Below are positions 19,975 to 33,804 of a stretch of 63,884 nucleotides of DNA, one piece after another. The first letter of the stretch is position 1; the number at the start of each line of letters is the position of its first letter. Origin of the DNA: a virus; the IMG/VR virus record IMGVR_UViG_3300036985_002667, positions 1 to 63,884 of that record. The stretch is one strand, 5' to 3'. A program made the translations under genes and the position numbers. The notes under the pieces were generated by a model. That model searched no databases, was not told where the DNA came from, and saw only the letters and a program-made list of their open reading frames with translations.

Positions 19975-19980
19975 GGTCGG

Positions 19981-20954: not shown

Positions 20955-21151
20955 ATCGATCCCATGAACTTTGGTAGGGGTGCCCAGTGTGTCCAGTACG
21001 TATCCTTGCGATTGTAGATGCCATACGTAGCACAACCCATCTTCTTATTGACGAGCTGCACCTTACGCCCCACCGGGCACGTATCGATTGGTCGCCAAGG
21101 ATACTCCTGATCCACTGCCGCAGCACCGTCCGATGAAGTCTTGACGGTCAT
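20951..21151 (-). CDS. DUF551-like small phage protein
   Basis: This 66-aa protein has the pattern WRPIDTCPVGRKVQL followed by THWAPLPKF, which matches DUF551-type proteins common in phages and prophages; the function is unknown. It has 4-base ATGA overlaps with genes on both sides, so it belongs to a translationally coupled chain. Confidence 0.72.
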   Translation of the reverse strand: MTVKTSSDGAAAVDQEYPWRPIDTCPVGRKVQLVNKKMGCATYGIYNRKDTYWTHWAPLPKFMGSI

Positions 21152-22031: not shown

Positions 22032-22339
22032 TCCTCACCTCTTGCTCTGATAGCGGCAGCGCAGGCTCTGACGCCGTTGTTATACGGCTTGTCCGTGTGC
22101 TCCAACTTGGAAAGTTGAGTTTCACACACCTTCGCACACGCCTCACGTTCGGCAGCAACAAGTTCCACAAGTGCTTTGATGTGCGTGTTAACCTGCTCAA
22201 TCACTGGCGCGTTTGCCGCAAAGATGCGCTCACGTTCTGCCGCAGAAACAAGAGCGGCGAAGCGTTCAAGCATAACGTCCTGCTCAAAGTCATCAAACCC
22301 AACTTCTCGCGCCATGCGGATAATATCTTCGCGGTTCAT
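22028..22339 (-). CDS. Conserved small phage protein, helical
   Basis: This 103-aa protein opens MNREDIIRMAREVGF and ends EREACAKVCE...NGVRACAAAIRARGEE, a pattern common in phage accessory regions without known function. It is mostly alpha helix with three Cys near the end. ATGA overlaps couple it to both neighbours. Confidence 0.68.
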   Translation of the reverse strand: MNREDIIRMAREVGFDDFEQDVMLERFAALVSAAERERIFAANAPVIEQVNTHIKALVELVAAEREACAKVCETQLSKLEHTDKPYNNGVRACAAAIRARGEE

Positions 22340-22680
22340 TCCTTATCCCTCCCAATCTCAGCCGCAGCCCTGACGATTGCGCGGCGGGTGGCGGCGTAGG
22401 GGTCGTCGCCATGAGGTTCTGTGCCGATGCACTGTCCTGTGCTGCCCACAACGTAAGTGCGGCAATCTTCATCGTCCACTTGGACGGTGAGCCACAACTT
22501 CACAACCAGTCGCAGCGCGTCGCCGTCATCGGTGAGCGGGTTCCAGCCGCTTGTAGAGGCCTTAATGATTCCGGGCTCCGGAGGGTGTTTGTAAGTGCCC
22601 TTCGGCTCTCCGCTTAAGTTAAGCGACGGTACTACTCCCGCAGCCTTCGCAGCCAGTTCCAGCAATTCGTGGTCAGTCAT
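22336..22680 (-). CDS. Conserved small phage protein
   Basis: This 114-aa protein has WNPLTDDGDALRLVVKL at about 45-62 and AATRRAIVRAAAEIG near the end, both familiar from phage and prophage accessory proteins of unknown function. It sits in the coupled chain with 4-base overlaps on both sides. Confidence 0.68.
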   Translation of the reverse strand: MTDHELLELAAKAAGVVPSLNLSGEPKGTYKHPPEPGIIKASTSGWNPLTDDGDALRLVVKLWLTVQVDDEDCRTYVVGSTGQCIGTEPHGDDPYAATRRAIVRAAAEIGRDKE

Positions 22681-22781
22681 TTCTTATCCCCCATCCCCAC
22701 CTGAGCGATCACCCAGCCAAGGAGCCAGCCGACAAGTGCGCCTCCGACCATTACCAGCAACTCAAAATAGTCGCTCATCAT
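22677..22781 (-). CDS. 34-aa single-span membrane protein
   Basis: The frame starts at ATG 22781 (ATG 22778 is possible), overlaps the previous stop by 4 bases and the next start by 4 bases, and encodes MMSDYFELLVMVGGALVGW with a Gly-rich membrane helix and a short Lys tail. The double coupling supports a real gene despite its size. Its role is unknown; a membrane effector or a minor holin-like peptide is possible. Confidence 0.55.
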   Translation of the reverse strand: MMSDYFELLVMVGGALVGWLLGWVIAQVGMGDKK

Positions 22782-22948
22782 TCCGCGATCTCCACATCAG
22801 CCCAAGCTGCCAGATGCACAACATTGCCATTGTCGTCAGTACAGTAGCTGTACATGCCGTCCACATGATGGAACAGCAGAGTGGTTTCGTTTCCTTGGTC
22901 ATCGCTTAGTTTCACCTTAGTGTTTCTGGGAACGTCGTAGAGTTTCAT
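22778..22948 (-). CDS. 56-aa small beta-rich protein
   Basis: It starts at ATG 22948, with a 4-base overlap with the secreted-protein gene. It begins MKLYDVPRNTKVKLSDD and contains FHHVDGMYSYCTDDNGNVVHL, a likely small beta barrel. I recognise similar short phage proteins but no function. It is coupled on both sides. Confidence 0.62.
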   Translation of the reverse strand: MKLYDVPRNTKVKLSDDQGNETTLLFHHVDGMYSYCTDDNGNVVHLAAWADVEIAE

Positions 22949-23301
22949 TTCTGTTGCCCCATGTAGTACGCGAGGCAGGAATTAAATGCGAGGTGGTCAT
23001 ACGCCCGGGTGCCGTCAATAGACCACGCATGGGTGTTAACCGATTTGGGGGTGTCCGCGATTTGAATCGTGCCGAATGCTTTGTTGCAGTCGCTCACCGT
23101 CACGGTCCAACGCCATGAATACGGAGCCGAATTCACATCCCACAGAGCTACGACTTTGGGCACGTCTTTAGTGCCGATATTGCGGACGGACGTGGGGAGG
23201 AACACGTAGGAGGCATCTGTAATAGAAAACGAATACGGGTTCGCCTCCTGTGCCAATGCCAAAGTGGGGACAAACAACAGTGCGGTAAGTAGCTTCTTCA
23301 T
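22945..23301 (-). CDS. Secreted or periplasmic small protein
   Basis: This 118-aa protein has a clear signal peptide (MKKLLTALLFVPTLALAQE, cleavage after ALA near 17). The mature part has Trp/Tyr-rich beta segments (YSWRWTVTVSDC) and two Cys that could form a disulfide. An exported phage protein in an early accessory cluster could act in the periplasm, for example in superinfection exclusion or envelope modification. This is inferred from location only. It is coupled by a 4-base overlap. Confidence 0.68.
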   Translation of the reverse strand: MKKLLTALLFVPTLALAQEANPYSFSITDASYVFLPTSVRNIGTKDVPKVVALWDVNSAPYSWRWTVTVSDCNKAFGTIQIADTPKSVNTHAWSIDGTRAYDHLAFNSCLAYYMGQQK

Positions 23302-23696
23302 TTAACTTTGCTCCCGAGCCAGATCATCGCTGCGCCGAGGACGCCGGCACCGGCTGCTACGGCCAGACCTAACGGCCCGAGGGCTACGATAGACAGCAAG
23401 CCGCCGACTACGCCAACGCTTGAGATGATCGCGCCTGCTCCCAGCAGAACCCGTTTAAACACGCTTGGTTTGGCGGCCTGCGCCGGGGCGGGTGTTGGTG
23501 CGGGCGCTATGGTGGGACGGCTGGGCGGTACGCGATTGACTTGGCTCATAGCGCGGGCCATCTGCGCGGCTTTGATCGTGGGCACGAGCGGGCTGTCCGT
23601 GTTGCGTAGCTCGGTGCGGTCGGGGCGTGGTGCTGCCCGTGCTGGGCTGGTCACTGAGGCTTCGGTTTGCGCTGGCGAAATGCGTTCGATCTTCAT
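23298..23696 (-). CDS. Proline-rich membrane protein, paralogue of its upstream neighbour
   Basis: This 132-aa protein starts at ATG 23696 (AAGGAA 7 bases upstream). The soluble N-terminal 80 residues are Pro/Ala rich and start MKIERISPAQ. Two Gly/Ala hydrophobic helices follow (about 86-128). The upstream protein begins MNVDRVSPRQ with the same soluble-plus-membrane plan, so the two look like diverged duplicates. The role is unknown. The start lies inside the frame of the upstream gene. Confidence 0.65.
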   Translation of the reverse strand: MKIERISPAQTEASVTSPARAAPRPDRTELRNTDSPLVPTIKAAQMARAMSQVNRVPPSRPTIAPAPTPAPAQAAKPSVFKRVLLGAGAIISSVGVVGGLLSIVALGPLGLAVAAGAGVLGAAMIWLGSKVK

Positions 23697-24105
23697 GGTC
23701 TTTTCCTTGGTTGATAAGTCGTTCGTGTTTAATAAAATACATTGCTGAAACAAAAGCACAGATACCGGTGATAACGAGGGCGCCGGGGCCGAACGCCGGG
23801 ATCAGCAACAGGCTGCCTATCGCACACCACGCCATCGCTCTCCCTGCTGCTTTCGCCGGAGTCTCCGGGGTTACATACGGGGGTCTCGGGGGAGGCTTTT
23901 CTGGCTTCTGCTCCACCTGCACCTTCTTGGCACGAGGGGCGGCAGTCTTGAGGGCTGACTCCAGCCTGCTCGCGTGCAGCGTCGAGCGTGTCGCATTGAT
24001 CGGATCAGACGAAGTGAAGGTCTTCACCTGCGGTACAGGGTCAAACCGTACCCGACGCTGAGCTGTGGGCTGATACTGCCGAGGCGATACGCGGTCGACG
24101 TTCAT
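23455..24105 (-). CDS. Proline-rich membrane protein with unusually long 3' overlap
   Basis: The frame is 216 aa. The first 135 residues have the same plan as the next gene: MNVDRVSPRQ, a Pro-rich linker, then two hydrophobic helices near 88-125. The last 80 residues are a Ser/Arg/Gln-rich sequence that overlaps the neighbour in another frame for about 240 bases. This part may be a fortuitous extension after a lost stop or an indel. The true functional protein may end near residue 136. Confidence 0.55.
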   Translation of the reverse strand: MNVDRVSPRQYQPTAQRRVRFDPVPQVKTFTSSDPINATRSTLHASRLESALKTAAPRAKKVQVEQKPEKPPPRPPYVTPETPAKAAGRAMAWCAIGSLLLIPAFGPGALVITGICAFVSAMYFIKHERLINQGKDHEDRTHFASANRSLSDQPSTGSTTPRPHRATQHGQPARAHDQSRADGPRYEPSQSRTAQPSHHSARTNTRPGAGRQTKRV

Positions 24106-24239
24106 GAGAAAAGTCTAACCAGTAGACCCACACCCACTACAGCCAGCGCGCCGAGGATACCACCCATAATCACGCCACTGCCGTAGCCCTCGGTGTAGCC
24201 TTCCTCAAACACGGTGGTGAATTCGTCTTCTGTAATCAC
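24102..24239 (-). CDS. 45-aa single-span membrane protein
   Basis: It starts at GTG 24239, overlapping the previous stop as GTGA, and overlaps the next start as ATGA. It has an acidic N-terminus (MITEDEFTTVFEEGYTEGYG) followed by one Gly/Leu/Val membrane helix. Coupling on both sides supports it. The role is unknown; together with the next two genes it forms a three-gene membrane cluster. Confidence 0.58.
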   Translation of the reverse strand: MITEDEFTTVFEEGYTEGYGSGVIMGGILGALAVVGVGLLVRLFS

Positions 24240-24706
24240 TGCTGTTTCCTTAAGTTAGTGGCGCGTCCTGATGTAATTTCTTTTTGGGCTAGCTTGATGG
24301 CTGTGTCCATCTCACGTACGGTTACTATCTCCATCTGCGCATCGTGCAGTTCCAGCAATTGGTTGAGTATCGTGATCTCCGGGCCAGTGGGCACGTACTT
24401 CCCCACCTTATGGCTGCGGTGAACAATATCCATCAATGTCTGACGCCCTGCTGTGACTTCGTCCGCATACTCTTTACCGAAACCCATCTTGTGCAGGGCT
24501 TCGGTAATGTTGTACATGGTGATGAGCATGCTCATGTGAGACGGCCCCGCCTCGCCTTGCAACAGGGCAAGCATCGCGGCGTGGTTCTTGAGCCGCAACG
24601 TTACCAGTTGATCGGCGTGGTCAGTCATTGGGGCAAACCCATCTTTCACATAGCCCATCGGGTTCAGAATCACACCCTTGGGCCGGTACTTACTTCTCTT
24701 GCGCAT
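24236..24706 (-). CDS. Conserved phage protein of unknown function
   Basis: This 156-aa protein has the basic start MRKRSKYRPKGVILNPMGYV and is otherwise helical (LVTLRLKNHAAMLALLQGEA, TLMDIVHRSHKVGKY, NQLLELHDAQMEIVTVREMDTAI). I recognise the family from phage and prophage accessory loci without an assigned role. The start overlaps the previous gene by 17 bases. Confidence 0.68.
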   Translation of the reverse strand: MRKRSKYRPKGVILNPMGYVKDGFAPMTDHADQLVTLRLKNHAAMLALLQGEAGPSHMSMLITMYNITEALHKMGFGKEYADEVTAGRQTLMDIVHRSHKVGKYVPTGPEITILNQLLELHDAQMEIVTVREMDTAIKLAQKEITSGRATNLRKQQ

Positions 24707-24863
24707 CGGCTCTCACCAAGGCAAGTGCTTCTTTGACCAACTCACGTACTTGCTTGGCGTCTTCTCGACCTTCTGCGGTCTGTAAGTGCGCGCCTGAGTG
24801 AATCGCAATGCCTAACAAACTATCTGCTGCGTGTAATGCCGCACTAATTAGTTCCTTGTTCAT
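24690..24863 (-). CDS. Small helical protein
   Basis: This 57-aa protein starts at ATG 24863 with GGAG 8 bases upstream. It begins MNKELISAALHAADSLLGIA and ends in a Lys/Glu/Ala helix. It overlaps both neighbours by about 17-20 bases. No function was recognised. Confidence 0.58.
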   Translation of the reverse strand: MNKELISAALHAADSLLGIAIHSGAHLQTAEGREDAKQVRELVKEALALVRADAQEK

Positions 24864-25008
24864 CTGTTTTCTCCCTTGTAAGACGCGCTTTGACTTTGGC
24901 GGTGCAGGTTGCGCATCGCCAGCGTTTGCCACTAGATGTTTTGAGCCACCCACCCCCAGCAGCAGGGCGGGTCTTCATGCAGTTGCTACAGAAGTGTGTG
25001 TCTGTCAT
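24844..25008 (-). CDS. 54-aa zinc-ribbon protein
   Basis: It starts at ATG 25008 and has two Cys pairs, C7-x2-C10 and C32-x2-C35, separated by a Gly/Trp loop (AAGGGWLKTSSGKRWR), with a Lys/Arg-rich tail. This is the layout of a small zinc ribbon that could bind nucleic acid or protein. It overlaps its neighbours by about 20 bases on each side. Confidence 0.65.
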   Translation of the reverse strand: MTDTHFCSNCMKTRPAAGGGWLKTSSGKRWRCATCTAKVKARLTREKTDEQGTN

Positions 25009-25252
25009 GGAAAATATCAATGTCCACTAAGTTGAAGTTCTCGTCGACCGAGAACCACAGAACTCTATCAGGTGGAGGCTCAACAACTTTAAGAAAATGC
25101 TCACCCGCCCGGGCCATGTCGGCAATGGCGACCAGCCACGCCGGGCGCTGGGACAAGGGCAGGTCGATGTGCGAGTCCGTGTCGAGTTCGGTGCTGAACA
25201 CAGACAAGTAGTAGCGTTCCTTGTGCTCGGTGTAGCGCATCTCAACAGTCAT
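24986..25252 (-). CDS. Hypothetical protein
   Basis: This 88-aa protein has two halves: MTVEMRYTEHKERYYLSV, then WLVAIADMARAGEHFLKVV and VLWFSVDENFNLVDIDIF. An alpha/beta fold is likely. It overlaps the upstream gene by 4 bases (ATGA). No family was recognised. Confidence 0.58.
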   Translation of the reverse strand: MTVEMRYTEHKERYYLSVFSTELDTDSHIDLPLSQRPAWLVAIADMARAGEHFLKVVEPPPDRVLWFSVDENFNLVDIDIFHDRHTLL

Positions 25253-25488
25253 GACTTCTCGTCCTCGAGCTTAGTCACCAGCTGCATCGCGCCGTACTCG
25301 TGCAGCGTCATCATGGTGCCTTTCAAAGACTCAGACGTAACGTAGGGTCGGAGCAGCTTGAGGTACTTGGAGTTGCCTACGTACTTGTCCTCGATACGCT
25401 CGGCACCGTCGAGTGCTTCGGATAATTTTTTTAGTTGCGGTTGGGTCAACAGCACTTTGGTATTGGCAATCTCAAGCAGGAACTTCAT
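25249..25488 (-). CDS. Hypothetical protein
   Basis: This 79-aa protein starts at ATG 25488 (AAGGAG upstream). It begins MKFLLEIANTKVLLTQPQ and contains LSEALDGAERIEDKYVG, then YVTSESLKGTMMTLHEYG. It is a soluble alpha/beta protein of unknown role, overlapping the upstream gene by 17 bases. Confidence 0.6.
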   Translation of the reverse strand: MKFLLEIANTKVLLTQPQLKKLSEALDGAERIEDKYVGNSKYLKLLRPYVTSESLKGTMMTLHEYGAMQLVTKLEDEKS

Positions 25489-26071
25489 CGTCGTCTCCTT
25501 CGTAGTCAAAAGTAATTTCGTTTGCTTCGCACATCTCAAGAAAGTGTTCTTCGGATGTTTCGTACTCGTAGGTCTTTTGCAACCGCGTGGCTAGCTCATG
25601 GCCTTGGTCTGTGACCCAGTCCTCGATCAGTGAGTAGATGCCCGACTGCTCTAGCTGCTCCTGCAACATGTCCTCCCAGTCTTGCGGGTCCATGTCAGAG
25701 AACACACCCTCCGGCACGGTGTAGGCGATGTTGTCGTTCCAGTCGAGCGAGAAGCCACTGCGGCGATTGTTGTTAGACACCCGTACATAGCTGCCGTCTT
25801 GGGCAAAGGCTACGTACATCGGATACCACTTCTCGTCCAGCTTCTGAGCCTGCATCCACGGGGCAATCTTAATGCGCCCGTTAAAGCCCGCCGTCCAGCC
25901 GTAGTGATCTTCGAAATAGATAGAGTCGACGTGCACCCCCATAGGGGAAACCTGCTCGGTGAAGTCGGACTCGATGAAGTCCCACCACTCGTGGTCTGGG
26001 TAGTGGTTGCACAACTCCTGCTCGTAACGCTTGGGGTCTTTCTCTTTGAGCTGCAAGGCTGTGAGCTGCAT
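25472..26071 (-). CDS. Acidic, Trp-rich conserved hypothetical protein
   Basis: This 199-aa protein has GGAG 6 bases before ATG 26071. Its features are HYPDHEWWDFIESDF, WTAGFNGRIKIAPWM, RRSGFSLDWNDNI and an acidic C-terminus ending DYEGDDDEVPA. It starts 2 bases before the stop of the VWA-metallopeptidase gene and dyad site 2 lies 36 bases upstream, so it may be both coupled and dyad-controlled. The acidic surface could reflect protein or DNA mimicry. I cannot assign a function. Confidence 0.65.
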   Translation of the reverse strand: MQLTALQLKEKDPKRYEQELCNHYPDHEWWDFIESDFTEQVSPMGVHVDSIYFEDHYGWTAGFNGRIKIAPWMQAQKLDEKWYPMYVAFAQDGSYVRVSNNNRRSGFSLDWNDNIAYTVPEGVFSDMDPQDWEDMLQEQLEQSGIYSLIEDWVTDQGHELATRLQKTYEYETSEEHFLEMCEANEITFDYEGDDDEVPA

Positions 26072-26072
26072 G

Positions 26073-27257
26073 TCAGTCTCCGATGTGCACGACGCTGCCG
26101 TAGGGTGGTCTAATCGTTAGACTCGTGAGTGCCCACAGCACGGGGTAGGGCGGGGCTGTATTGAACGGGGTGTGCCCGTCAGTGAGCACGACACAGGCGT
26201 CAGGCTTGATGTGCTTGGCACGCAGGTAGTCGAACGCCACGGGCAGGTCGGTGCCGCCACCGCCACGGGGTTGCAGGTCTGCTACGGCGAACTGGCCGTG
26301 CTCGAATGTCTGGTGGGCGGCAACGCGAGTGTCGACGTACATCACATCTACGTACGTGGGCTTAACCTGCTCGATGATGGCAGCCAGCTCGGACACGAAC
26401 CGCGTGGCAATGTCTGTGCCGAAGCACGACCCGCTGGTGTCGAACACCACCGCCAGACGCGTCATAGTAGTGCTCACCATAGACGGCAGGTAAATGTCCA
26501 TGTCCATGTACCGTCTGTTCGGTCTGCGCCATGTCGCCTCGTCACGGCCTGTGCACGTCTCACTCACGAACTCACGCAGCACCTCGCGCCAGTTACGGGT
26601 CGGGTGCAGCAGCTCACCGAATGCGGGGGTATTGTCGAGGCCCATCTGGGCAGCACGTCGCTTGGCAAGTATCTCGCCTTGGCGCAGGGCTTGGTCGATC
26701 TCCTTGATGCGCTTGTCGTCGAACGCTTGCTGCGCTGCGTCAGCGTCGGCAGTGGTGGCGTCGGGTGGGGGTGCGTCGTCGGGCAGATGCTCGTCGAACG
26801 ACTGTGGTGGGGTAGGGGGTGGGTTCTTCTTGAGGTCGGCAAAGATACGACCGACTGACCAGCCCCGGTACTTAGGCTCAGGCTGCACACCTAGGGCGGG
26901 CATGGCAAGGAAGTCATCTCCGTTGTTCATGTCCATCAGGGTCAGGTTCACGAAGTGATCCATCGCAATGTTAGCGAGCTGGGCATTTTCTGTGATGAGT
27001 GAGCGCCATACCCGCATGTGGCGGTAGGCTTTGTGTTGCTGCTCGTGCAGGATGAGCAGACGCAGTTGCGGGTCGGATAGCGTGTCGACGAACTCAGGGT
27101 TGATGAGCACGTTCCACCCGTCAGTCGCAGCGGTAGGCACGGTGTCCGTGATAGTGAGCTTGCCACATGCCATGATGCCGGCGTACCGGCAGAAGCGTGG
27201 GTGTCTCATGATGGCGATCTTGGCCTTGTTGATACGGTCTTGAGTTGGGACTTGCAT
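26073..27257 (-). CDS. Putative metallopeptidase with C-terminal VWA domain
   Basis: This 394-aa protein has SD AAGGAA before ATG 27257. The N-terminal half has a zincin motif H71-E-Q-Q-H75 after LLIL, as in bacterial DUF2201-type putative metallopeptidases. The C-terminal VWA-like domain has a complete MIDAS: D273-T-S-G-S277, GGGGTDLPVAF and VVLTDGH. In bacteria such proteins are commonly encoded beside MoxR AAA+ ATPases; here one lies 1.5 kb upstream in the same direction. A MoxR-driven remodelling or protease complex acting on host proteins is inferred. The linker (about 155-195) is Pro/Asp/Ala rich. Confidence 0.85.
   Translation of the reverse strand: MQVPTQDRINKAKIAIMRHPRFCRYAGIMACGKLTITDTVPTAATDGWNVLINPEFVDTLSDPQLRLLILHEQQHKAYRHMRVWRSLITENAQLANIAMDHFVNLTLMDMNNGDDFLAMPALGVQPEPKYRGWSVGRIFADLKKNPPPTPPQSFDEHLPDDAPPPDATTADADAAQQAFDDKRIKEIDQALRQGEILAKRRAAQMGLDNTPAFGELLHPTRNWREVLREFVSETCTGRDEATWRRPNRRYMDMDIYLPSMVSTTMTRLAVVFDTSGSCFGTDIATRFVSELAAIIEQVKPTYVDVMYVDTRVAAHQTFEHGQFAVADLQPRGGGGTDLPVAFDYLRAKHIKPDACVVLTDGHTPFNTAPPYPVLWALTSLTIRPPYGSVVHIGD
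26108..26122 (-). promoter_or_regulatory. Dyad site 2
   Basis: GTCTAA-TCG-TTAGAC is a perfect dyad inside the last codons (SLTIRP) of the metallopeptidase-VWA gene, 36 bases ahead of the next start. Its preservation within coding sequence suggests selection on the DNA word. Confidence 0.7.
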
Positions 27258-27285
27258 GGTTGTTCCTTAGTGGTTAGTGGTGTGG

Positions 27286-27696
27286 CTAGTCTCGGTACAG
27301 GTACGTATGCCCTTCGATCTCGATCTCGTCGTAGTCAGATCGGCAGTTGTCGGCAGTCGCTTTCCAATCGATCTCGATGTACCACGGTAAGGGTTTGGGC
27401 ACGTCGCCGCAGTTTTCTAGTGTGTCCTTGATGTAGTCGACGAAGTGGTCGTCGGCAATAAGGTAGTCGGCACTACCAATCTCCTCCAGCGCGTCGGTCA
27501 GCATTAGCCACTCGACCCCCTCGGGCTGGTGTTTCTCCCATACCTCGACAGTCTGCTCGCGCAGGTTGTCGTAGTCGTCGTGGTCCTCGTCGATGCCAGC
27601 AGACTCGCACATCTCATCAAGGAACTGCTCGCGCTCTGCGTCTAGCTCCTCGATCCTGTCTTCAATCACTTGCCTGCTGATAAAGTCACCGTGCAT
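27286..27696 (-). CDS. Strongly acidic protein, possible DNA mimic or antirestriction protein
   Basis: This 136-aa protein is very rich in Asp and Glu (IEELDAEREQFLDEMCES, IDEDHDDYDN). It ends PWYIEIDWKATADNCRSDYDEIEIEGHTYLY, which resembles the IDW...DY...G-TY ending of a phage family sometimes annotated as antirestriction. The charge and size recall DNA-mimic inhibitors such as Ocr or ArdA. This is inference from composition and one motif. It overlaps the upstream gene by 11 bases. Confidence 0.62.
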   Translation of the reverse strand: MHGDFISRQVIEDRIEELDAEREQFLDEMCESAGIDEDHDDYDNLREQTVEVWEKHQPEGVEWLMLTDALEEIGSADYLIADDHFVDYIKDTLENCGDVPKPLPWYIEIDWKATADNCRSDYDEIEIEGHTYLYRD

Positions 27697-27859
27697 GGCG
27701 TGCCTCCTTAAGTAGTGCCGTCTGTAGTCGTGTCAGGTCGCGCTGGTGGTCGTACATCTGAGGGCGTGGGGCGTAGGATCGGCTGATCCGTGTCGGGTTC
27801 CAGTCCTTGTGTAATCGCACGATAGTGCGTCCGTTTGATGTGGTCTCAAGTCGTAGCAT
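27686..27859 (-). CDS. 57-aa basic protein
   Basis: It has the strong SD AAGGAGATCACC before ATG 27859, and dyad site 3 sits 20 bases upstream of the start. It begins MLRLETTSNGRTIVRLHKDW and ends in an Arg/Lys-rich helix (QRDLTRLQTALLKEARHAR). Its stop falls inside the next gene. The leader signals make it a convincing gene; no family was recognised. Confidence 0.62.
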   Translation of the reverse strand: MLRLETTSNGRTIVRLHKDWNPTRISRSYAPRPQMYDHQRDLTRLQTALLKEARHAR

Positions 27860-27879
27860 GGTGATCTCCTTGGTAGTGG

Positions 27880-27894
27880 GTCTAACGGTTAGAA
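27880..27894 (-). promoter_or_regulatory. Dyad site 3
   Basis: The core TCTAA-CGG-TTAGA is intact, with G outside on the left and A on the right. It contains the TAA stop of the DUF2591 gene and precedes the 57-aa gene by 20 bases. Confidence 0.68.
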
Positions 27895-28173
27895 TGGCAC
27901 GTCTACCTCGTCGCCTATCTTGCTGGCGACGTATGCACGCATGGCTGCAACGAGTGGGGTGGGGCCTTCGCTATAGCGGGGTGGATAGTCTTCGGTTCGC
28001 GCATACCAGTGCGCCGAGGGGGTGGCCGTAATGCAGAGCCTCTCACGCTCAATGATCGGCCCTCCATGCTCCCATTTGCCGCAGTAGTTGACCGGGGACA
28101 GCACGCCCGTCAGTCTCTCTGCATGGTTCACTGCCCAATTAAGGGCGTCGCCTGTCAGTTCACTTGTTTTCAT
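27889..28173 (-). CDS. DUF2591-like phage protein
   Basis: This 94-aa protein has MKTSELTGDALNWAVNHAE at the start, GGPIIERERLCI in the middle, and GPTPLVAAMRAYVASKIGDEVDVP at the end, an excellent match to DUF2591 as remembered from phages and prophages. The function is unknown. It has a 4-base ATGA overlap with the gene before it, and its stop codon is part of dyad site 3. Confidence 0.88.
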   Translation of the reverse strand: MKTSELTGDALNWAVNHAERLTGVLSPVNYCGKWEHGGPIIERERLCITATPSAHWYARTEDYPPRYSEGPTPLVAAMRAYVASKIGDEVDVPF

Positions 28174-28448
28174 TTCACATACTCCTCTAGGGTTTGGATT
28201 AACTTCTTGCGTTGCTCGGGGTGGTGCCTTGGGTCAGACAGGTGGGCCAGAGTCAGCCGTATCATCTTCTTCACCGTCTCCTCCCGCTCGGCGTTCAGCT
28301 TGAGTAGCTTCTCGATGTTGTCGGTCAGCTGGGGCACAAGAGTGGCAGCGCGCTCCATCTCGGCCACGTGGTAGTCGGGCCACTGACTCTCGGGATACTC
28401 GCCCTTGATAGTGTTAGCGGCGAACGTCAGTAGGTCATGCAGCTTCAT
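28170..28448 (-). CDS. Helical hypothetical protein
   Basis: This 92-aa protein is almost all helix, with a probable coiled coil at 44-70 (IEKLLKLNAEREETVKKM). It is coupled by ATGA overlaps to both neighbours. No function was recognised. Confidence 0.62.
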   Translation of the reverse strand: MKLHDLLTFAANTIKGEYPESQWPDYHVAEMERAATLVPQLTDNIEKLLKLNAEREETVKKMIRLTLAHLSDPRHHPEQRKKLIQTLEEYVK

Positions 28449-28780
28449 TTCCCCTCCTTGTCCCAGTTCTGGTCCGCTTTGCGTATTGCTTCATTGGCCA
28501 TACCCATGATCGCGTCGAGCCGCTCGCCGTCGTGATAGTCGTAGACATACGCAGGAGTGGACACGATCTTCTTGAGTGCAGCCAGCAGGTCGGGTGCAGC
28601 GGCCACAAGCTGTGCATCAGCACGCCCTCGGGCTTCGGTTTCTGGGGTGTATACGCCGTGTGCGTTGCACGAAACTACAGCGGCAACGCATAGCCCGCCC
28701 TTAACGGGGCCTACATATACATGCCGTGGGTCATTGTCGTGGTTCCAAACTTCCCACGGCCCGGGTGTGTGTTGTGTCAT
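28445..28780 (-). CDS. Conserved phage protein (HTPGPW / AAAPDLLAAL type)
   Basis: This 111-aa protein starts MTQHTPGPWEVW and contains ADAQLVAAAPDLLAALKKI, a signature seen in a very common phage accessory family of unknown function. The SD is GAGGAG before ATG 28780, and dyad site 4 lies 24 bases upstream of the start. Confidence 0.82.
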   Translation of the reverse strand: MTQHTPGPWEVWNHDNDPRHVYVGPVKGGLCVAAVVSCNAHGVYTPETEARGRADAQLVAAAPDLLAALKKIVSTPAYVYDYHDGERLDAIMGMANEAIRKADQNWDKEGK

Positions 28781-28804
28781 AGTGGTCTCCTCGGTAACGG
28801 GTGG

Positions 28805-28819
28805 GTCTAACCGTTAGAA
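28805..28819 (-). promoter_or_regulatory. Dyad site 4
   Basis: The core TCTAA-CCG-TTAGA is intact, with outer bases G and A. It holds the TAA stop of the MoxR-like gene and lies in the leader of the 111-aa gene. Confidence 0.68.
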
Positions 28820-29887
28820 GTATTTGCCCATGTCGCTGGCTGCGCGCCGGAACAGTGCGTCGGCACAGGCCATCGGTGCCTTGTCACGGTTACCTGCCAC
28901 GGTGGTGATGTACAGCGCCCGGGCCTCGAACGACTCCCAGCGGTTGACGTACGTCATGACAGGGGCGATTGTCGTGCGGGTCGTGTCCATCGCCAGCCGG
29001 AAGGCCAAGATAAAGTAACTGGCCGTGTCCGGGGGCAGTGGGGCAGTCTCAGGATGGGTAGTGATAGTCTCGGTGGGCGGCAGCTTGTCAGACAGGCGCA
29101 GCAGTGCGTCCATGTCGCGGGCAGCAGACTCACCCACGGTGCCGATCAGGGCAGGTAGTGTAGCCTCGCCTAGCGTGTGGCGATGGCTGACGATGTGTGA
29201 GGCGTGAGCAAGAGACCGAGGGCTACAGAAGGCCCGGGTCTGGTTGTTGAGTGGGTTGAATATGTACGGGTTCTTGGTCGTGGGATCGTCGGCATAACAC
29301 TCGAACACTTGGGAGTATTCTTGAGCGAAGGCCAGCACCTCTGCTGCGATGGCGTTGTGAGAGGCTGTGGCCCAGTTGATCCACTCATCTGCCGTGGGGT
29401 TGGCAACAGGCAACACAGTCATGCGGTTGTAAGCATGGGCCGGGATGTTATCTCCCACGCCGTCAGTGTCGAGGTTAGTCGTGGCAAAGACTATAGAGCC
29501 CGGGGGCAGCGGGTGGTCACCGAGGCGTCGTTCGAGGATGACCGGCAACAACATGTTGAGCACAGGGCGGGACGCCTTGCCCAGCTCGTCGAGCATGATA
29601 AGCACGGGACGTGGCTGGTGTGCACCGAACCGCACATTGGGTGCATAGGTCGTGGTGGGTATGGCGGAGGGTGAGGAGGGTGAGGGTCGGTCGATGATAG
29701 GCAGCCCGAGGTCGCCTAGGTCTAGGTTGGCACAGTCGATGTAGCAGGGGTGGTAGTCAGGCATGTGACGTGCAATAGTCGTGAGGATGCTCGACTTGCC
29801 AATGCCCGGGGCACCGCGCAGCAGAAACGTATTAGTGTGTCCGCATGTTTGCACGAGGGTGGCAGCTTGCTGGAGAGTGACTTTCAT
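28814..29887 (-). CDS. MoxR-type AAA+ ATPase
   Basis: This 357-aa protein has Walker A G25-APGIGKS32, Walker B V95-LIMLDE101, and sensor 1 FATTN at 134-138 followed by RMTVLPVANPTADEW. The early strand-helix layout and the insert before the lid fit MoxR-family ATPases, which remodel protein complexes together with VWA partners. The partner here is most likely the HExxH-VWA protein at 26073, transcribed in the same direction. The C-terminal 130 residues are helical with no extra domain recognised. The leader carries dyad site 5 and the CACCTA dyad; the SD is AAGGA. Confidence 0.86.
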   Translation of the reverse strand: MKVTLQQAATLVQTCGHTNTFLLRGAPGIGKSSILTTIARHMPDYHPCYIDCANLDLGDLGLPIIDRPSPSSPSAIPTTTYAPNVRFGAHQPRPVLIMLDELGKASRPVLNMLLPVILERRLGDHPLPPGSIVFATTNLDTDGVGDNIPAHAYNRMTVLPVANPTADEWINWATASHNAIAAEVLAFAQEYSQVFECYADDPTTKNPYIFNPLNNQTRAFCSPRSLAHASHIVSHRHTLGEATLPALIGTVGESAARDMDALLRLSDKLPPTETITTHPETAPLPPDTASYFILAFRLAMDTTRTTIAPVMTYVNRWESFEARALYITTVAGNRDKAPMACADALFRRAASDMGKYF

Positions 29888-29913
29888 GGTGTGTCCTTAG
29901 TGGTTGGTAGTGG

Positions 29914-29934
29914 GTGGTCTAACGGTTAGACCAC
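29914..29934 (-). promoter_or_regulatory. Dyad site 5 (longest copy)
   Basis: GTGGTCTAA and TTAGACCAC flank CGG, a perfect 9-3-9 dyad, the longest of the set. It lies 26 bases upstream of the MoxR-like start and shares its last bases with the adjoining CACCTA-type dyad. Confidence 0.78.
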
Positions 29935-29947
29935 CTATTGCTAGGTG
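29932..29947 (-). promoter_or_regulatory. CACCTA dyad, copy A
   Basis: CACCTA-TTGC-TAGGTG is a perfect 6-4-6 dyad immediately after the stop of the 255-aa gene and touching dyad site 5. An identical 16-mer is at 31032-31047. There is no T tract, so a binding site is more likely than a terminator. Confidence 0.6.
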
Positions 29948-30715
29948 TTAGACCGGGATGTGCGTCGTCGTGGTCTCTATCGTGTGGTACATGGGCTCCT
30001 TGGCCTTAGTGAGGATGTGGTTGAGGGCGTCCTTGGCCGGCAGCTTGTGCTGTTGCCACGTGACGTAAAGGGTCGGATAACTGTATGACGCGGCAATGGC
30101 AGGCCACAGCTCAGGCTGTGTGGTGACGGCAAGCTCTAGCGCTCGAGAGTCGTATAGCTTGTGCTTGTAATAGAGCTGTTGCGTCTCGTTGGCAGCGGCA
30201 GCGTCCTTAGTGTCCGGCACTCCTGCGTGCAGCACAGGGAACACTGAGCGGAACTCCCGTGCCTGCTTATGGAATGGCCGGGACTGAGTGGTGTCGATAC
30301 ACCGGCGCTTGAACGGGAGAGGGCGTCGTGGGGTGCCGTGTTGGTTGAGGTGCATGCCATCGTAGAAGGCGTAGTGGCCGTGACCGGGCACGTAGAGGTG
30401 CCACTGGCTGAGCCCGAACCGCTTGCATGAATAGATACGGGTGGGCAGCTTGATAGTGGCAAGAGCTTGGTTGAGCGTGTCCTTGGTGATGTTAGTGCGC
30501 CACGAGGCGGCAGATAGCTGCACACGCCCATCGGGGTACGCTCGCAGTATTGTCGTCTTGTGGCACACAACCTCTGCGTGGGTGGGGGAGATGGCAACGC
30601 GCTGGTTGGTGCGGCGGCGGTTGTGGGCGTAGAGCGGGGCGTACCCCACGTATGCACCTCGTTTGTATTTGTATTCGTCGTAGTGGGCAGTCAGCAGGTC
30701 GTAGGCAGTGGTCAT
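29948..30715 (-). CDS. Conserved hypothetical protein
   Basis: This 255-aa protein has SD AGGAG before ATG 30715. It is basic and Tyr/His rich. The segment VVCHKTTILRAYPDGRVQL followed by WRTNITKDTLNQAL recalls a family in environmental phages with a V-x-L-(S/N)-x-G/A-W-x-T pattern; the role is unknown. Dyad site 6 is in its leader. It lies in the same transcript as the MoxR gene and may serve the same early function. Confidence 0.65.
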   Translation of the reverse strand: MTTAYDLLTAHYDEYKYKRGAYVGYAPLYAHNRRRTNQRVAISPTHAEVVCHKTTILRAYPDGRVQLSAASWRTNITKDTLNQALATIKLPTRIYSCKRFGLSQWHLYVPGHGHYAFYDGMHLNQHGTPRRPLPFKRRCIDTTQSRPFHKQAREFRSVFPVLHAGVPDTKDAAAANETQQLYYKHKLYDSRALELAVTTQPELWPAIAASYSYPTLYVTWQQHKLPAKDALNHILTKAKEPMYHTIETTTTHIPV

Positions 30716-30730
30716 GGTGTCTCCTAGGCA

Positions 30731-30745
30731 GTCTAACGGTTAGAA
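30731..30745 (-). promoter_or_regulatory. Dyad site 6
   Basis: The sequence is GTCTAA-CGG-TTAGAA. It contains the TAA stop of the 58-aa gene and lies 15 bases ahead of the 255-aa gene start. Confidence 0.68.
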
Positions 30746-30916
30746 CGTGGGGGTGTGAACGACGGGGGTACCGTCGGGGCGTGCGGCAACAACTACCGAC
30801 ACTTCGTATGCACGCTTGGCCTTGAACAGGGCAGCGGCAATGTCTCGGGCTTCGAGTGAGGTGTTAGCTTGCACCTCACGCTGTTGATTCTTATAAAAGG
30901 CAACGTATGTATACAT
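30740..30916 (-). CDS. 58-aa hypothetical protein, first gene after a consensus promoter
   Basis: It starts at ATG 30916 with AAGGGG upstream. It begins MYTYVAFYKNQQREVQANTS and contains DIAAALFKAKRAYEVSVVV, a plausible small alpha/beta fold. It is the first gene of a transcript from the TTGACA-17-TATAAT promoter at 31000-31028, and dyad site 7 is in the leader. Its stop lies in dyad site 6. Confidence 0.65.
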   Translation of the reverse strand: MYTYVAFYKNQQREVQANTSLEARDIAAALFKAKRAYEVSVVVAARPDGTPVVHTPTF

Positions 30917-30934
30917 GGTGTCCCCTTAGTGGTA

Positions 30935-30951
30935 GGTCTAACGATTAGACC
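30935..30951 (-). promoter_or_regulatory. Dyad site 7
   Basis: GGTCTAA-CGA-TTAGACC is a perfect 7-3-7 dyad. It begins about 42 bases downstream of the predicted start of transcription and ends 18 bases before the ATG of the 58-aa gene. Confidence 0.78.
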
Positions 30952-30981
30952 CGGCGCAAGGTGGCTGGGTCGTGGGTGAGA

Positions 30982-30995
30982 ACTCAGTATTGAGT
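30982..30995. promoter_or_regulatory. Short dyad at the predicted transcription start
   Basis: ACTCA-GTAT-TGAGT straddles the expected +1 of the 31.0-kb promoter. Its position suits a repressor site, but it is short and seen once. Confidence 0.35.
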
Positions 30996-30999
30996 ATAT

Positions 31000-31028
31000 A
31001 TTATACCATACATTAGTCTATTTGTCAA
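31000..31028 (-). promoter_or_regulatory. Sigma70-type promoter, perfect consensus
   Basis: On the minus strand TTGACA (31028-31023) and TATAAT (31005-31000) are separated by 17 bases. The -35 box lies 3 bases beyond the CACCTA dyad copy B. It should drive the 58-aa, 255-aa and MoxR-like genes with host RNA polymerase. Confidence 0.85.
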
Positions 31029-31030
31029 GT

Positions 31031-31399
31031 TCACCTATTGCTAGGTGGTGGGTCGGTCGGAGGCAGGGCGTTGGCAACGGCTGTGGCTCGCAGCTGGTCG
31101 ACGATCTGCTTCACACGCTGGCGGGACAGGCCGTGGACGGCACCAGCCTTCGCCATGCTCTGGCCCTCGTATGTGACGCGCTTATAAATATCTTGGTCCC
31201 GCGTGGACGTGGGCAGGGTGGCAAGGGATAGGGTTGGGAGGGTGTCGGGGCTTGAGTAGTGCTGGAGAGTGGCAACAAACTCCGCTAGAGGGTAGAGGCG
31301 GCCCGTGAGCATGACATAGCGCACGCCTTCTATATATTGTATAGGCAAGGGGAGACCGTCGAGGGTCGGCAACAGTTCGAGTTGAGGGCGAGAGGTCAT
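31031..31399 (-). CDS. Putative regulator with sigma-region-4-like HTH
   Basis: This 122-aa protein has GGAG 7 bases before ATG 31399. Residues about 77-104 (YEGQSMAKAGAVHGLSRQRVKQIVDQL) have the spacing of the sigma70 region 4 HTH. The N-terminal 65 residues are hydrophobic and Leu/Pro rich and could dimerise. It has its own consensus promoter and dyad site 8 in the leader, so autoregulation is likely. It is my best candidate for the protein that binds the dyad array. The stop overlaps the CACCTA dyad. Confidence 0.7.
   Translation of the reverse strand: MTSRPQLELLPTLDGLPLPIQYIEGVRYVMLTGRLYPLAEFVATLQHYSSPDTLPTLSLATLPTSTRDQDIYKRVTYEGQSMAKAGAVHGLSRQRVKQIVDQLRATAVANALPPTDPPPSNR
31032..31047 (-). 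promoter_or_regulatory. CACCTA dyad, copy B
   Basis: CACCTA-TTGC-TAGGTG is identical to 29932-29947. It covers the stop codon of the 122-aa regulator gene and ends 3 bases from the -35 box of the 31.0-kb promoter, an activator-like position. Confidence 0.62.
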
Positions 31400-31414
31400 T
31401 TGAGGCTCCGGTGA

Positions 31415-31431
31415 GGTCTAACGATTAGACC
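31415..31431 (-). promoter_or_regulatory. Dyad site 8
   Basis: GGTCTAA-CGA-TTAGACC is identical to site 7 and is placed alike, starting about 41 bases after the predicted transcription start and 15 bases before the ATG of the regulator gene. Confidence 0.78.
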
Positions 31432-31478
31432 CCAAATTATAGGGGGGTATGATGGAAAAAGAGTAGTCAATAGAGAAT

Positions 31479-31507
31479 ATTATACCACAGGATAGCGGGT
31501 TTGTCAA
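31479..31507 (-). promoter_or_regulatory. Sigma70-type promoter, perfect consensus
   Basis: On the minus strand TTGACA (31507-31502) and TATAAT (31484-31479) are separated by 17 bases. It should drive the 122-aa regulator. A second TATAAT at 31441-31436 lacks a good -35 box. Confidence 0.84.
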
Positions 31508-31978
31508 GGTATATGTTTTGGAAGACATACCCTCCTATTATATGTGTCGATTTGTGTATAAAAAAGGTAAAAGTATTAACACAATAGATACGAAAAAACG
31601 TTACAGTGATACAAATTAGTTGTTTTAAATCAACGGGTTAAAAATGTATAGGTTACCTAATAAGCCGAAAAAGCCTTTAGAATCAACGGGGTATCAGTGT
31701 AACGTAACTTTTTGAAAAAGAGGGGGCTCCCGGCAGACCTTTGGAGGACTTGAAAAACGGCAGCGTGTATGTAAAGGATATGAAAGCAGCCGATTAGGGG
31801 AAAAAAGAATTTCCCGGCGGCGCTCCTCAAAAACAGCGTTACAGCGTCACATATACTTATTATAAATTAATTAATCTCTCTCTCTCTCCTCTGAAAACAC
31901 TCCTTTTGCCACATATAAACCGTGTAACGTTGCCAACGTTACACGGCGGCTAAAAACGTTACAGCGTCACATCTACAT
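31508..31978. other. AT-rich non-coding region with iterons, candidate replication origin
   Basis: No gene is visible in these 470 bases. They hold four iteron-like copies of ACGTTACA(G/C)-rich words: 31597-31613, an inverted copy at 31692-31705, 31837-31856 and 31955-31976. Two AATCAACGGG repeats lie near 31628 and 31681. An AT-rich run with TAAATTAATTAAT and a CT tract spans 31851-31890, and there is a 27-base inverted repeat. Iterons plus an AT-rich unwinding element are typical of origins. A regulatory region is the alternative. Confidence 0.5.
31920..31946. repeat. 27-base perfect inverted repeat
   Basis: CCGTGTAACGTTG and CAACGTTACACGG flank a single C. The arms contain the same TAACGTT word as the nearby iterons, so one protein may bind both. 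Confidence 0.75.
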
Positions 31979-32320
31979 TTACCTACCCTCAATTAGAGTT
32001 TTTCCGTCCGGCAGCCGTGTCACCCGAACCTTGCCCGCCATCAGCTTGCAGAACGCTCTGAGCCGGGTTTTGTCTGGGAATAGGGTTGCCAGAGTGTCGC
32101 CTTCTTCTGCGGTAAGCGTCAGGCTTAGCCCCGCCGTGTCCGGCAGCCTTGTCACGGTGCCTGTGCCGTCCCAATTGGATTTCCACGACATACGCTTATT
32201 ACACCCTCCTGCGTATACGTGGACGTAGGCGCGGGCTTTCTTCGCTTTGTCGCGGGGGATAGTGCAGCTCTCGCCCACTTTCAACATCTTGAACGGCCAT
32301 TCTTCTCTGAAGTTCATCAT
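31979..32320 (-). CDS. DUF7303-like DNA-associated small protein
   Basis: This 113-aa protein has SD GAGGAG before ATG 32320. The N-terminal segment (WPFKMLKVGESCTIPRDKA...ARAYVHVYAGG...KRMSWKSNWDG) follows a pattern of short phage early proteins (WPF..M.VG.S...P), remembered as DUF7303. A Lys/Arg-rich surface suggests nucleic acid binding. Its promoter and dyad site 9 lie directly upstream. It could be another regulator, or an initiator acting on the neighbouring iteron region; both ideas come from position. Confidence 0.6.
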   Translation of the reverse strand: MMNFREEWPFKMLKVGESCTIPRDKAKKARAYVHVYAGGCNKRMSWKSNWDGTGTVTRLPDTAGLSLTLTAEEGDTLATLFPDKTRLRAFCKLMAGKVRVTRLPDGKTLIEGR

Positions 32321-32332
32321 TGCTCCTCTGTG

Positions 32333-32347
32333 GTCTAACGGTTAGAC
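32333..32347 (-). promoter_or_regulatory. Dyad site 9
   Basis: GTCTAA-CGG-TTAGAC is a perfect dyad placed at about +1 to +15 of the 32.36-kb promoter, where a bound protein would block transcription. It is 12 bases before the ATG of the 113-aa gene. Confidence 0.76.
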
Positions 32348-32353
32348 ATACTC

Positions 32354-32382
32354 ATATTACACCCTACTCTCGCCCGCCTCAA
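32354..32382 (-). promoter_or_regulatory. Sigma70-like promoter
   Basis: On the minus strand TTGAGG and TAATAT are separated by 17 bases, giving a start near 32347. It drives the 113-aa gene. The upstream flank 32383-32470 is very C-rich with two ACTATGACG copies (32407-32415 and 32456-32464) and no gene. Confidence 0.65.
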
Positions 32383-32486
32383 GCGCTCACTCGCCCGCCC
32401 CCAGCCACTATGACGCCCCCGCGCCCGCTCGCCTGCCCCTCGCTCGCTACTAACTACTATGACGTTTCGCCCGCAAGGGGCGCAAA

Positions 32487-32509
32487 AAAGCCCGCCGAAG
32501 CGGGCTTGT
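32487..32509 (-). terminator. Rho-independent terminator
   Basis: On the minus strand AGCCCGC, TTCG and GCGGGCT form a 7-bp stem with a stable tetraloop followed by TTTTT. It ends the transcript that starts at the 33.7-kb promoter, just after the 27-aa gene. Confidence 0.88.
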
Positions 32510-32510
32510 C

Positions 32511-32594
32511 CTACCATTCAAAGAGCCATGCCAGAAACACAAAGCCCGCCATTATCGCCAGCGTGAGCCAGCCTACCTCTTGCCCGAGCGTCAT
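32511..32594 (-). CDS. 27-aa single-span membrane peptide
   Basis: It starts at ATG 32594, which overlaps the previous stop as ATGA. It encodes MTLGQEVGWLTLAIMAGFVF and a Trp/Phe end. It is the last gene before the terminator. Coupling and a clean membrane helix support it; the role is unknown. Confidence 0.52.
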   Translation of the reverse strand: MTLGQEVGWLTLAIMAGFVFLAWLFEW

Positions 32595-32746
32595 ATCTCA
32601 AGCCTTTCCACTTCATCCTGCCACCCTAGCAGTGCATCGCACTGCGCGAGAGTATCTTTGACTACCGTATCAACCCGGCGGGCCAGCTCGGGTGGCAGGG
32701 TGCCGCTAATGCGGCATTCAAGCAACAAGGCGAGTAGTTCGAACAT
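32591..32746 (-). CDS. 51-aa helical protein
   Basis: It starts at ATG 32746 with AAGGGA 9 bases upstream, and dyad site 10 is 15 bases before the start. The sequence MFELLALLLECRISGTLPPE then ARRVDTVVKDTLAQCDALL suggests two amphipathic helices. It is coupled to the following membrane peptide. The function is unknown. Confidence 0.6.
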   Translation of the reverse strand: MFELLALLLECRISGTLPPELARRVDTVVKDTLAQCDALLGWQDEVERLEI

Positions 32747-32761
32747 GTTATTTTTCCCTTA

Positions 32762-32780
32762 GGTTCTAACGATTAGAACC
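32762..32780 (-). promoter_or_regulatory. Dyad site 10 (compensated variant)
   Basis: GGTTCTAA-CGA-TTAGAACC is an 8-3-8 dyad. Both outer G/C pairs of the consensus are changed together to T/A, so the symmetry is kept. This argues that symmetry itself is selected. Confidence 0.76.
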
Positions 32781-32800
32781 CCGCGCCTCGCGACGCGGGG
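32779..32800 (-). terminator. GC hairpin after the first early gene
   Basis: CCCCGCG and CGCGGGG pair around an 8-base loop, 8 bases after the stop of the 259-aa gene and touching dyad site 10. There is no T tract; it may attenuate or mark mRNA processing. Confidence 0.45.
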
Positions 32801-32808
32801 TGAGCGTG

Positions 32809-33588
32809 TTACTCAGCGAAAAGGTTATTGTCCGCGAGAATTTCGCGCACCTCAGACGCGACAGAAAGCTCTCCAATGCTCTCAAGCATCGCCACCAATG
32901 CGGTGGCATGCAAAGCCACTTCGTGACGCGTCAGGGCCTTTACCGGGCCTGACTTAGGTGCCGCCTTGCGTCCGCCGGTTTTTTGGCTGATAGGTGCGGC
33001 ATCAATCGCCTTGCGCACCTCAGATTGTGCCTTCTCCGCGTCAAGCTTTGCCTGCGCAGCCGCAAGCTTTACCTCGTCGGTGGCTTTTGCCTTCGCGGCC
33101 TTGCTGGCCAGCTCTTTTGCCTCAGCGGCTTTTTCAGCCGCGAGGGTTTCCGCTGCAATAAGCTTTTCCGCGTGCTCGGATTCTTTTTTAACCTTGGCAG
33201 CATCCAACGTGTCTTTGTACAAAGACACATAAAATGGAACCCCCGTCGCGAAGGATATTTCCATGCCCTTCGCGTATGCTCGCGAAGTGGAGTATCCAAG
33301 CTTCCATGTGGTGCCGTAATCCGTGATTTTGCCCGCTATTTTCGTTGGTGGAATCCCCTTTTCGTTTTTCACAAGGGACACGGGTTTGACCACGCTTTCC
33401 ATAATATCTGCTACGGCTACCTTTGCAGATACGCCAGTCTCTCGGGCGATATCTAACAGATCGTTGATTGCCTGAGCCCGCATAACATCCGCGGATAGGA
33501 TCGCTTCAGTCAATCCCTTGCCGATGCTTTCCAACGCTTTGCGCGTTGCAAGAAGTTCGTTTTCTGGCATTGTCTTGATAATTTCCAC
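32809..33588 (-). CDS. First early leftward protein, Ala/Lys coiled coil
   Basis: This 259-aa protein starts at GTG 33588 with AGGAG 7 bases upstream. The N-terminal 125 residues are mixed alpha/beta (TMPENELLATRKALESIGKG, PPTKIAGKITDYGTTWKLG). Residues 130-195 are an Ala/Lys/Glu coiled coil. A basic linker (SQKTGGRKAAPKSG) leads to a helical end. It is the first gene from the strongest early promoter, so it is probably made first. H-NS-like or histone-like DNA binding is possible from the basic linker and coiled coil, but no family was recognised. Confidence 0.68.
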   Translation of the reverse strand: MEIIKTMPENELLATRKALESIGKGLTEAILSADVMRAQAINDLLDIARETGVSAKVAVADIMESVVKPVSLVKNEKGIPPTKIAGKITDYGTTWKLGYSTSRAYAKGMEISFATGVPFYVSLYKDTLDAAKVKKESEHAEKLIAAETLAAEKAAEAKELASKAAKAKATDEVKLAAAQAKLDAEKAQSEVRKAIDAAPISQKTGGRKAAPKSGPVKALTRHEVALHATALVAMLESIGELSVASEVREILADNNLFAE

Positions 33589-33667
33589 GGTGTAACTCCT
33601 CTTTGTAGTGCCTAGGCGCTTAGGTAAAGAGCTGCAAGGTGCGCCGTTAAACCTTACAACAGACTAC

Positions 33668-33696
33668 ATAATATCTTTTACTGAACAGACTGTCAA
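33668..33696 (-). promoter_or_regulatory. Early leftward promoter
   Basis: On the minus strand TTGACA (33696-33691) and TATTAT (33673-33668) are separated by 17 bases, with a start near 33661 and a 72-base leader. It is the first promoter of the leftward block. Confidence 0.83.
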
Positions 33697-33700
33697 GGGC

Positions 33701-33714
33701 TCTAACGGTTAGAC
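33701..33714 (-). promoter_or_regulatory. Dyad site 11, upstream of the -35 box
   Basis: TCTAA-CGG-TTAGA ends 4 bases upstream of the -35 box of the early promoter. It lies outside the transcript, so this copy must act as DNA. Confidence 0.72.
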
Positions 33715-33804
33715 CAGCGCATCGCGCACGAACGCGCCGGGCGCGACCCCACCCATACCCCACCCCCCGCGACCCATGATGGGACTCCTCCCTTGTGCTT
33801 GTGC

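Follow-up and report, generated by a model that had tools for sequence, protein, structure and literature searches.

A co-inherited MoxR ATPase and metallopeptidase-VWA protein in a virus with N4-like traits, a probable ATP-driven remodelling or processing machine

The window analysed here is the whole of a 63,884-bp IMG/VR virus record (IMGVR_UViG_3300036985_002667), and our subject is two of its genes, both on the minus strand. One encodes a MoxR-type AAA+ ATPase of 357 aa (28814-29887), and the other a 394-aa protein with a DUF2201_N zinc-metallopeptidase-like domain and a VWA (DUF2201) domain (26073-27257). Both open reading frames (ORFs) were confirmed at these coordinates, and five ORFs of 136, 57, 94, 92 and 111 aa lie between them. 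The window has N4-like traits, namely a virion RNA polymerase (vRNAP)-like ORF, a portal, a terminase, a DNA polymerase and a primase; a near-identity search of the phage collection with the window found no near relative. A sequence-only reading of this DNA had recognized a MoxR AAA+ protein and a DUF2201-like metallopeptidase with a complete metal ion-dependent adhesion site (MIDAS), encoded in one direction, and had proposed that they form an ATP-driven protease or remodeller in a host-takeover or counter-defence island. Coordinates, Pfam and phrog matches bear out the identification of the two proteins. An ATP-driven protease or remodeller is plausible for a co-inherited pair whose ATPase, zincin and MIDAS centres are intact, and the results do not support the island.

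The ATPase is a relative of N4 gp24 and matched the corresponding family, phrog_1297, over residues 2-354 (E 2e-44). Its scores against two Pfam models fell below the cut-offs (AAA_5, 21.4 bits, cut-off 22; bpMoxR, 15.7, cut-off 27). A sequence-profile search of the PDB gave the AAA+ domains of Midasin as the best relatives. The AlphaFold2 model, with a predicted local distance difference test score (pLDDT) of 85.9, had as its nearest solved folds NorQ, NorQ-NorD complexes included, and CbbQ, all of which are MoxR proteins. Alignment placed the Walker A motif, GAPGIGKS, at residues 25-32 (29792-29815, minus strand) and the Walker B motif, IMLDE, at residues 97-101 (29585-29599, minus strand). 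Walker A and B, a sensor-1 Asn, conserved Arg residues and the MoxR-subfamily fold together identify the protein as a MoxR AAA+ ATPase.

The second protein is a relative of N4 gp25 and matched phrog_1314 over residues 5-392 (E 1.8e-76). It also exceeded the curated Pfam cut-offs for both DUF2201 (E 7.5e-22) and the DUF2201_N metallopeptidase domain (E 2.3e-20). The predicted zinc-binding and catalytic motif, HEQQH, is at residues 71-75 in the alignment (27033-27047, minus strand), and the MIDAS motif, DTSGS, at residues 273-277 (26427-26441, minus strand) is completed by T336 and D360. A DUF2201_N domain with HExxH joined to a DUF2201 domain with MIDAS places the protein among the DUF2201 metallopeptidase-VWA proteins. 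Its AlphaFold2 model (pLDDT 76.6) weakly matched many VWA domains, including that of NorD, none of them below E 0.001, and the N-terminal part of the model weakly matched selecase, a small metallopeptidase. The family phrog_1314 carries the name 'HNH endonuclease', which many RefSeq phage records have inherited, as for N4 gp25 (NC_008720, 11164-12306). A Pfam scan of the window VWA protein matched no HNH model.

Conservation of the catalytic residues of both proteins was counted in the alignment columns of 104 relatives; these counts replaced a count of the Walker motifs by regular expression, which gave false losses. In the ATPase, the Walker A Lys (K31), the Walker B Glu (E101), the sensor-1 Asn (N138) and the conserved Arg residues R155 and R224 were each present in 104 of 104, and the Walker B Asp in 103. 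In the VWA protein, each His of HExxH was found in all 104 and the catalytic Glu in 103; His80 and Asp100 were likewise invariant (104/104 each), and N96 and N104 nearly so. Similarly, MIDAS residues D273, S275, S277 and D360 were each present in 104 of 104, while T336 was present in 101 and replaced by Ser in the other three. The HExxH and Walker residues are thus retained in almost all homologues, and both catalytic centres are intact, as the sequence-only reading had judged. Compared with the closest relatives, the ratio of nonsynonymous to synonymous substitution rates (dN/dS) was ~0.16-0.21 for the MoxR gene and ~0.21-0.29 for the VWA gene. Judged from these sequence comparisons, neither gene is decaying.

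The two genes are strongly linked. When the ATPase was the starting point, the VWA gene lay downstream on the same strand in 29 of 29 viral loci; when the VWA gene was the starting point, the ATPase lay upstream on the same strand in 86 of 93 loci on viral and bacterial contigs. Five of the seven loci without an ATPase are truncated, as they start 450 nt or less from a contig end. The gap between the paired genes had a median of 214 nt in the VWA-found loci, and often the two are directly adjacent. A search of whole records recovered both genes in 21 of 21, and near-full-length relatives of N4 gp24 and gp25 were present in 612 and 627 records, respectively, of the phage collection. The genes are therefore not independently distributed. 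Furthermore, the pairwise evolutionary distances of the MoxR and VWA proteins were correlated at 0.93 across the 104 loci. Where a polymerase was also present (22 loci), MoxR and VWA correlated at 0.94 with each other, compared with 0.80 and 0.86 between the pair and the polymerase. These comparisons establish the homology of the pair, its intact sites, obligate linkage, order and common strand, and the joint divergence of its members. In Vibrio phage JSF3 (L042, 2505-4905), HNH homing-endonuclease genes split the MoxR gene into pieces, from which we infer an intron-like insertion of the kind typical of conserved, valued genes.

In N4, gp24 and gp25 adjoin each other and represent phrog_1297 and phrog_1314. 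The window resembles N4 in both families, the MoxR-then-VWA order, the common strand and the replication-region neighbourhood, and both of its proteins match their families over the full length. In contrast, the window VWA protein has ~26% identity with that of N4, and five small genes split the window pair where the gap in N4 is 167 nt. The window proteins are divergent orthologues of gp24 and gp25, a new divergent member of an already known pair. Published sets of core genes for N4-like phages and Schitoviridae include both (PMC4193335; PMC7650795), which speaks against an accessory island.

Clustering of neighbouring genes identified a gene of ~290 aa that adjoins the pair in 84 of 119 loci. 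Eight of 14 aligned members of this family match Pfam DUF3150, with E up to 0.01, and the family profile matches DUF3150-annotated proteins on plasmids and in cyanophage MinM2. A DUF3150 gene is present in 46 of the 63 well-flanked loci (at least 2.5 kb on either side), always on the same strand and upstream of, between or downstream of the pair, with four changes of position required on the tree. No DUF3150 match was obtained in the whole window or in relatives L003, L004, L005 and L007, nor was the family found in N4 or in the jumbo phages sampled. The absence of DUF3150 sets the window apart from the MoxR-DUF3150-VWA ternary operon. Because the window clade (support 100) is nested within a larger DUF3150-carrying group, the simplest account would be that this clade lost DUF3150.

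The same module is found on plasmids. Accession lists showed that the ATPase and metallopeptidase-VWA genes accompany DUF3150 in 41 of 42 plasmid records with that gene. In the plasmid operons that we read, from Cupriavidus, Burkholderia and Rhodovastum, the order is ATPase-DUF3150-VWA, and the contexts include conjugative and partition ones. The plasmid operons share with the window a MoxR gene and a DUF2201 metallopeptidase-VWA gene in one operon and differ in having DUF3150 between the two. In pCAR1 (ORF101-103), DUF3150 is flanked by a NorQ-type ATPase on one side and a different, longer VWA protein on the other; these MoxR and VWA proteins were so divergent that our profiles missed them, and they were identified by Pfam. 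A 2009 paper described ORF100-103 of pCAR1 as conserved in R478, Rts1, SXT and R391 (PMC2642839), and a literature search found no paper naming DUF3150. A different DUF3150 context occurs on a Candidatus Manganitrophus plasmid (L144, 2343-5363), where the gene is beside an AAA ATPase, DUF1257 and DUF2997, with no VWA gene annotated nearby. Both DUF3150 as a recurring third component and the link to plasmids are new, and both lie outside the window.

Within the window, the pair sits in a leftward, promoter-driven block with DNA-replication genes. Three leftward sigma70 promoters were predicted on the minus strand. The one at 31000-31028 has a 12/12 consensus with an extended -10 and reads towards the MoxR and VWA genes; the others are at 31479-31507 and 33668-33696. 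Two of the three are perfect, with 12/12 and an extended -10, and one is 11/12. Because these near-perfect promoters lie upstream, the 'early block' of the sequence-only reading is plausible as far as sequence can indicate.

This setting bears on the idea that the pair is a virion-assembly chaperone/protease that acts on structural proteins, remodelling and processing them as particles mature. Such a role was proposed for a MoxR and metallopeptidase-vWA pair in jumbo phages (Iyer et al. 2021, PMC7824862), which is like the window pair in having a vWA protein with an N-terminal metallopeptidase domain and an adjacent MoxR gene. It differs in belonging to large myoviruses and in a longer ATPase (~440 aa in PBECO4). 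A similar role has been inferred for p618/p892 of Acidianus two-tailed virus, where p618 is a virion MoxR protein shown to bind the VWA protein p892 (PMC4124505); that viral MoxR-VWA pair is archaeal, a virion component and has no reported peptidase domain. The near-universality of the pair in N4-like phages also counts in favour of particle assembly. However, the pair maps to the early/replication region, away from head and tail genes, in N4, the window and other phages sampled, and N4 gp24 and gp25 are middle transcripts (PMC4193335). Sigma70 promoters that read into the window's block also argue against assembly as the sole role. The weightiest counterpoint is the homologous plasmid operons, which make no virions. 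A purely virion-assembly role is unlikely because of this plasmid carriage, and we regard the assembly explanation as a whole as improbable.

The five genes between the pair are all on the minus strand. The sequence-only reading had rightly counted them and noted DUF2591 and a very acidic protein among them. The acidic protein (27286-27696, 136 aa, pI 4.05, 30% Asp plus Glu; phrog_25535) is limited to the window's closest clade. The next gene encodes a basic protein of 57 aa (27686-27859); several relatives, for example L002-L005, L008, L009 and L012-L017, have a homologue of it between their MoxR and VWA genes. It is followed by a 94-aa NinX protein (27889-28173; Phage_P22_NinX, formerly DUF2591, E 3.4e-15), whose position varies among relatives, a 92-aa protein found in the window clade only (28170-28448) and a 111-aa protein of phrog_1273 (28445-28780). 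The 92-aa ORF was considered as a DUF3150 remnant and rejected, as its likeness to the DUF3150 C-terminus was not significant (E 0.076). Outside the pair on the same strand, a 255-aa protein (29948-30715) belongs to a family carried by 43 of the 63 well-flanked related loci, mostly just upstream of MoxR, and not seen in the plasmid operons. An acidic 199-aa protein (25472-26071, minus strand; phrog_5162) is often downstream of VWA in relatives. The pair itself co-occurs in other phages, but the small intervening genes do not do so consistently; they differ among relatives, and most relatives lack them. They are clade-specific passengers and not a conserved island.

These neighbours also bear on a second alternative, in which the pair is a counter-defence or host-takeover protease directed at host defence or regulatory complexes, which it would destroy or take apart. 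The early position and strong promoters would suit such a protease, bacterial conflict systems include MoxR-vWA couples (PMC7159879), and plasmids and phages share a need to resist host defence. Nevertheless, neither protein had a PADLOC match, and the third components of known conflict systems were not seen: the flanking ORFs scanned had no VMAP, iSTAND, FtsH or beta-propeller domain of the MoxR-vWA ternary systems. Near-universality in N4-like phages suits a core function better than an accessory weapon, and the genes between the pair are variable where elsewhere the two are often adjacent. We consider this alternative rather unlikely.

The sequence-only reading had placed two dyads in the segment. 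They are real but not specific to it, being part of a family of 12. The MoxR start has a perfect copy, GGTCTAACGGTTAGACC (29916-29932), 29 nt upstream. The 17-bp dyad GGTCTAACNGTTAGACC occurs 12 times in the window at three or fewer mismatches (expected 0.13), with starts at 19980, 24112, 26107, 27879, 28804, 29916, 30730, 30935, 31415, 32332, 32763 and 33699, all within 19.98-33.72 kb (19980-33715). The exact core TCTAA-N3-TTAGA is present in 11 of the 12. Eleven copies have a leftward-block start codon 6-36 nt beyond their end, and the remaining one abuts a sigma70 promoter; at both perfect promoters a dyad lies 48-49 nt downstream of the -10 box. Relatives L002, L012, L017 and L058 repeat this layout, with arms and centres that differ in sequence from the window's, such as ATCTAAGCCTTAGAT in L017 and GTTCTAAN3TTAGAAC in L058. 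The dyads look like scattered regulator sites (operators, stoperator-like) or RNA hairpins, and the helix-turn-helix ORF at 31031-31399 is a candidate regulator. The family is a matter separate from the pair, a phage-wide repeat upstream of early genes.

Some traits of the dyads recall hairpin promoters, namely arms of 5-7 bp, a 3-nt loop and a place just upstream of starts. We did not adopt them as N4 vRNAP promoters, given the state of the vRNAP-like ORF (3764-10567, 2267 aa, phrog_2206). This ORF resembles N4 vRNAP near the N-terminus only; it is shorter than the N4 protein and lacks recognizable polymerase motifs. T7-type polymerase motif B and TxxGR, searched as simple patterns, were unmatched in it, and it had no PDB match. 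It may be an ejection protein from which the polymerase was lost or in which it was never present.

Taken together, the results make it probable that the MoxR ATPase and its VWA/zincin partner act as one ATP-driven remodelling or processing machine, early and inside the cell. In the NorQD model, the VWA adaptor binds the client through its MIDAS, and the MoxR ring works on this adaptor, with ATP hydrolysis putting the client under strain (PMC9976466, PMC13036017). By analogy, the two phage proteins would interact physically: driven by ATP hydrolysis, a ring of MoxR would pull or twist the VWA protein, whose MIDAS would hold an acidic patch on a target complex. The HExxH domain would then cut the target, or be opened to cut, so that proteolysis is a predicted outcome. 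NorQ-NorD, CbbQ-CbbO and RavA-ViaA share with the pair a MoxR ring and a VWA adaptor with MIDAS, and include the closest solved folds; they differ in lacking a DUF2201_N zincin domain and in having dedicated cellular clients. Unlike theirs, the phage VWA domain has no long 'finger' insertion in its moderate-confidence model. Client cleavage appears likely because the VWA adaptor also bears a zincin. The complex processed or remodelled would be a host or replication/propagation complex, met early in the cell and not solely during particle assembly; an early intracellular role is proposed because the pair lies in a leftward block with replication genes and the same module is on virion-less plasmids.

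The same likeness to NorQD allows for a third alternative, a non-proteolytic maturation factor for NorQD/CbbQO-like metal insertion or enzyme reactivation, with HExxH as a metal site only. NorQ/NorD and CbbQ are the closest structural relatives, and NorQD drives metal insertion by twisting (PMC13036017). In contrast, the His, Glu and His of HExxH, a fourth residue (His) and the Asp/Asn set form an invariant, zincin-like group (catalytic Glu in 103/104), the DUF2201_N fold weakly matches a true metallopeptidase, and the genes beside the pair showed no consistent metalloenzyme client. This explanation seems quite unlikely.

Several observations weigh against a single ATP-driven machine. Two bacterial contigs (L127 and L138) have ~6 kb upstream of the VWA gene with no detectable MoxR, although L138 contains a VWA fragment only, and in Vibrio phage phiKT1024 the paired genes are ~46 kb apart. 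The distance correlation owes part of its strength to shared ancestry. Confidence in the VWA-protein model is only moderate, the HExxH site may hold a metal but not cut, and the plasmid and phage versions could differ in target. A literature search found no biochemistry for any phage member of the pair, and the CRISPRi-ART literature contained nothing on N4 gp24/gp25.

Beyond the window, we give about even weight to the proposal of a mobile-element MoxR-DUF3150-VWA machine common to lytic phages and plasmids, with the N4-type pair as its phage branch. This machine would serve propagation inside the cell, through replication, recombination or host-complex processing, and not virion assembly, and the window clade would be a reduced form without DUF3150. 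The plasmid-shared operon argues against the published idea that the pair solely builds virions, and DUF3150 gains a candidate partner and context. In N4-like phages, gp24 and gp25 have long been 'core, function unknown', and hundreds of records name gp25 an 'HNH endonuclease'. The inseparable pair, its retained catalytic residues and an operon type shared with plasmids open its role to tests in N4 and E. coli K-12.

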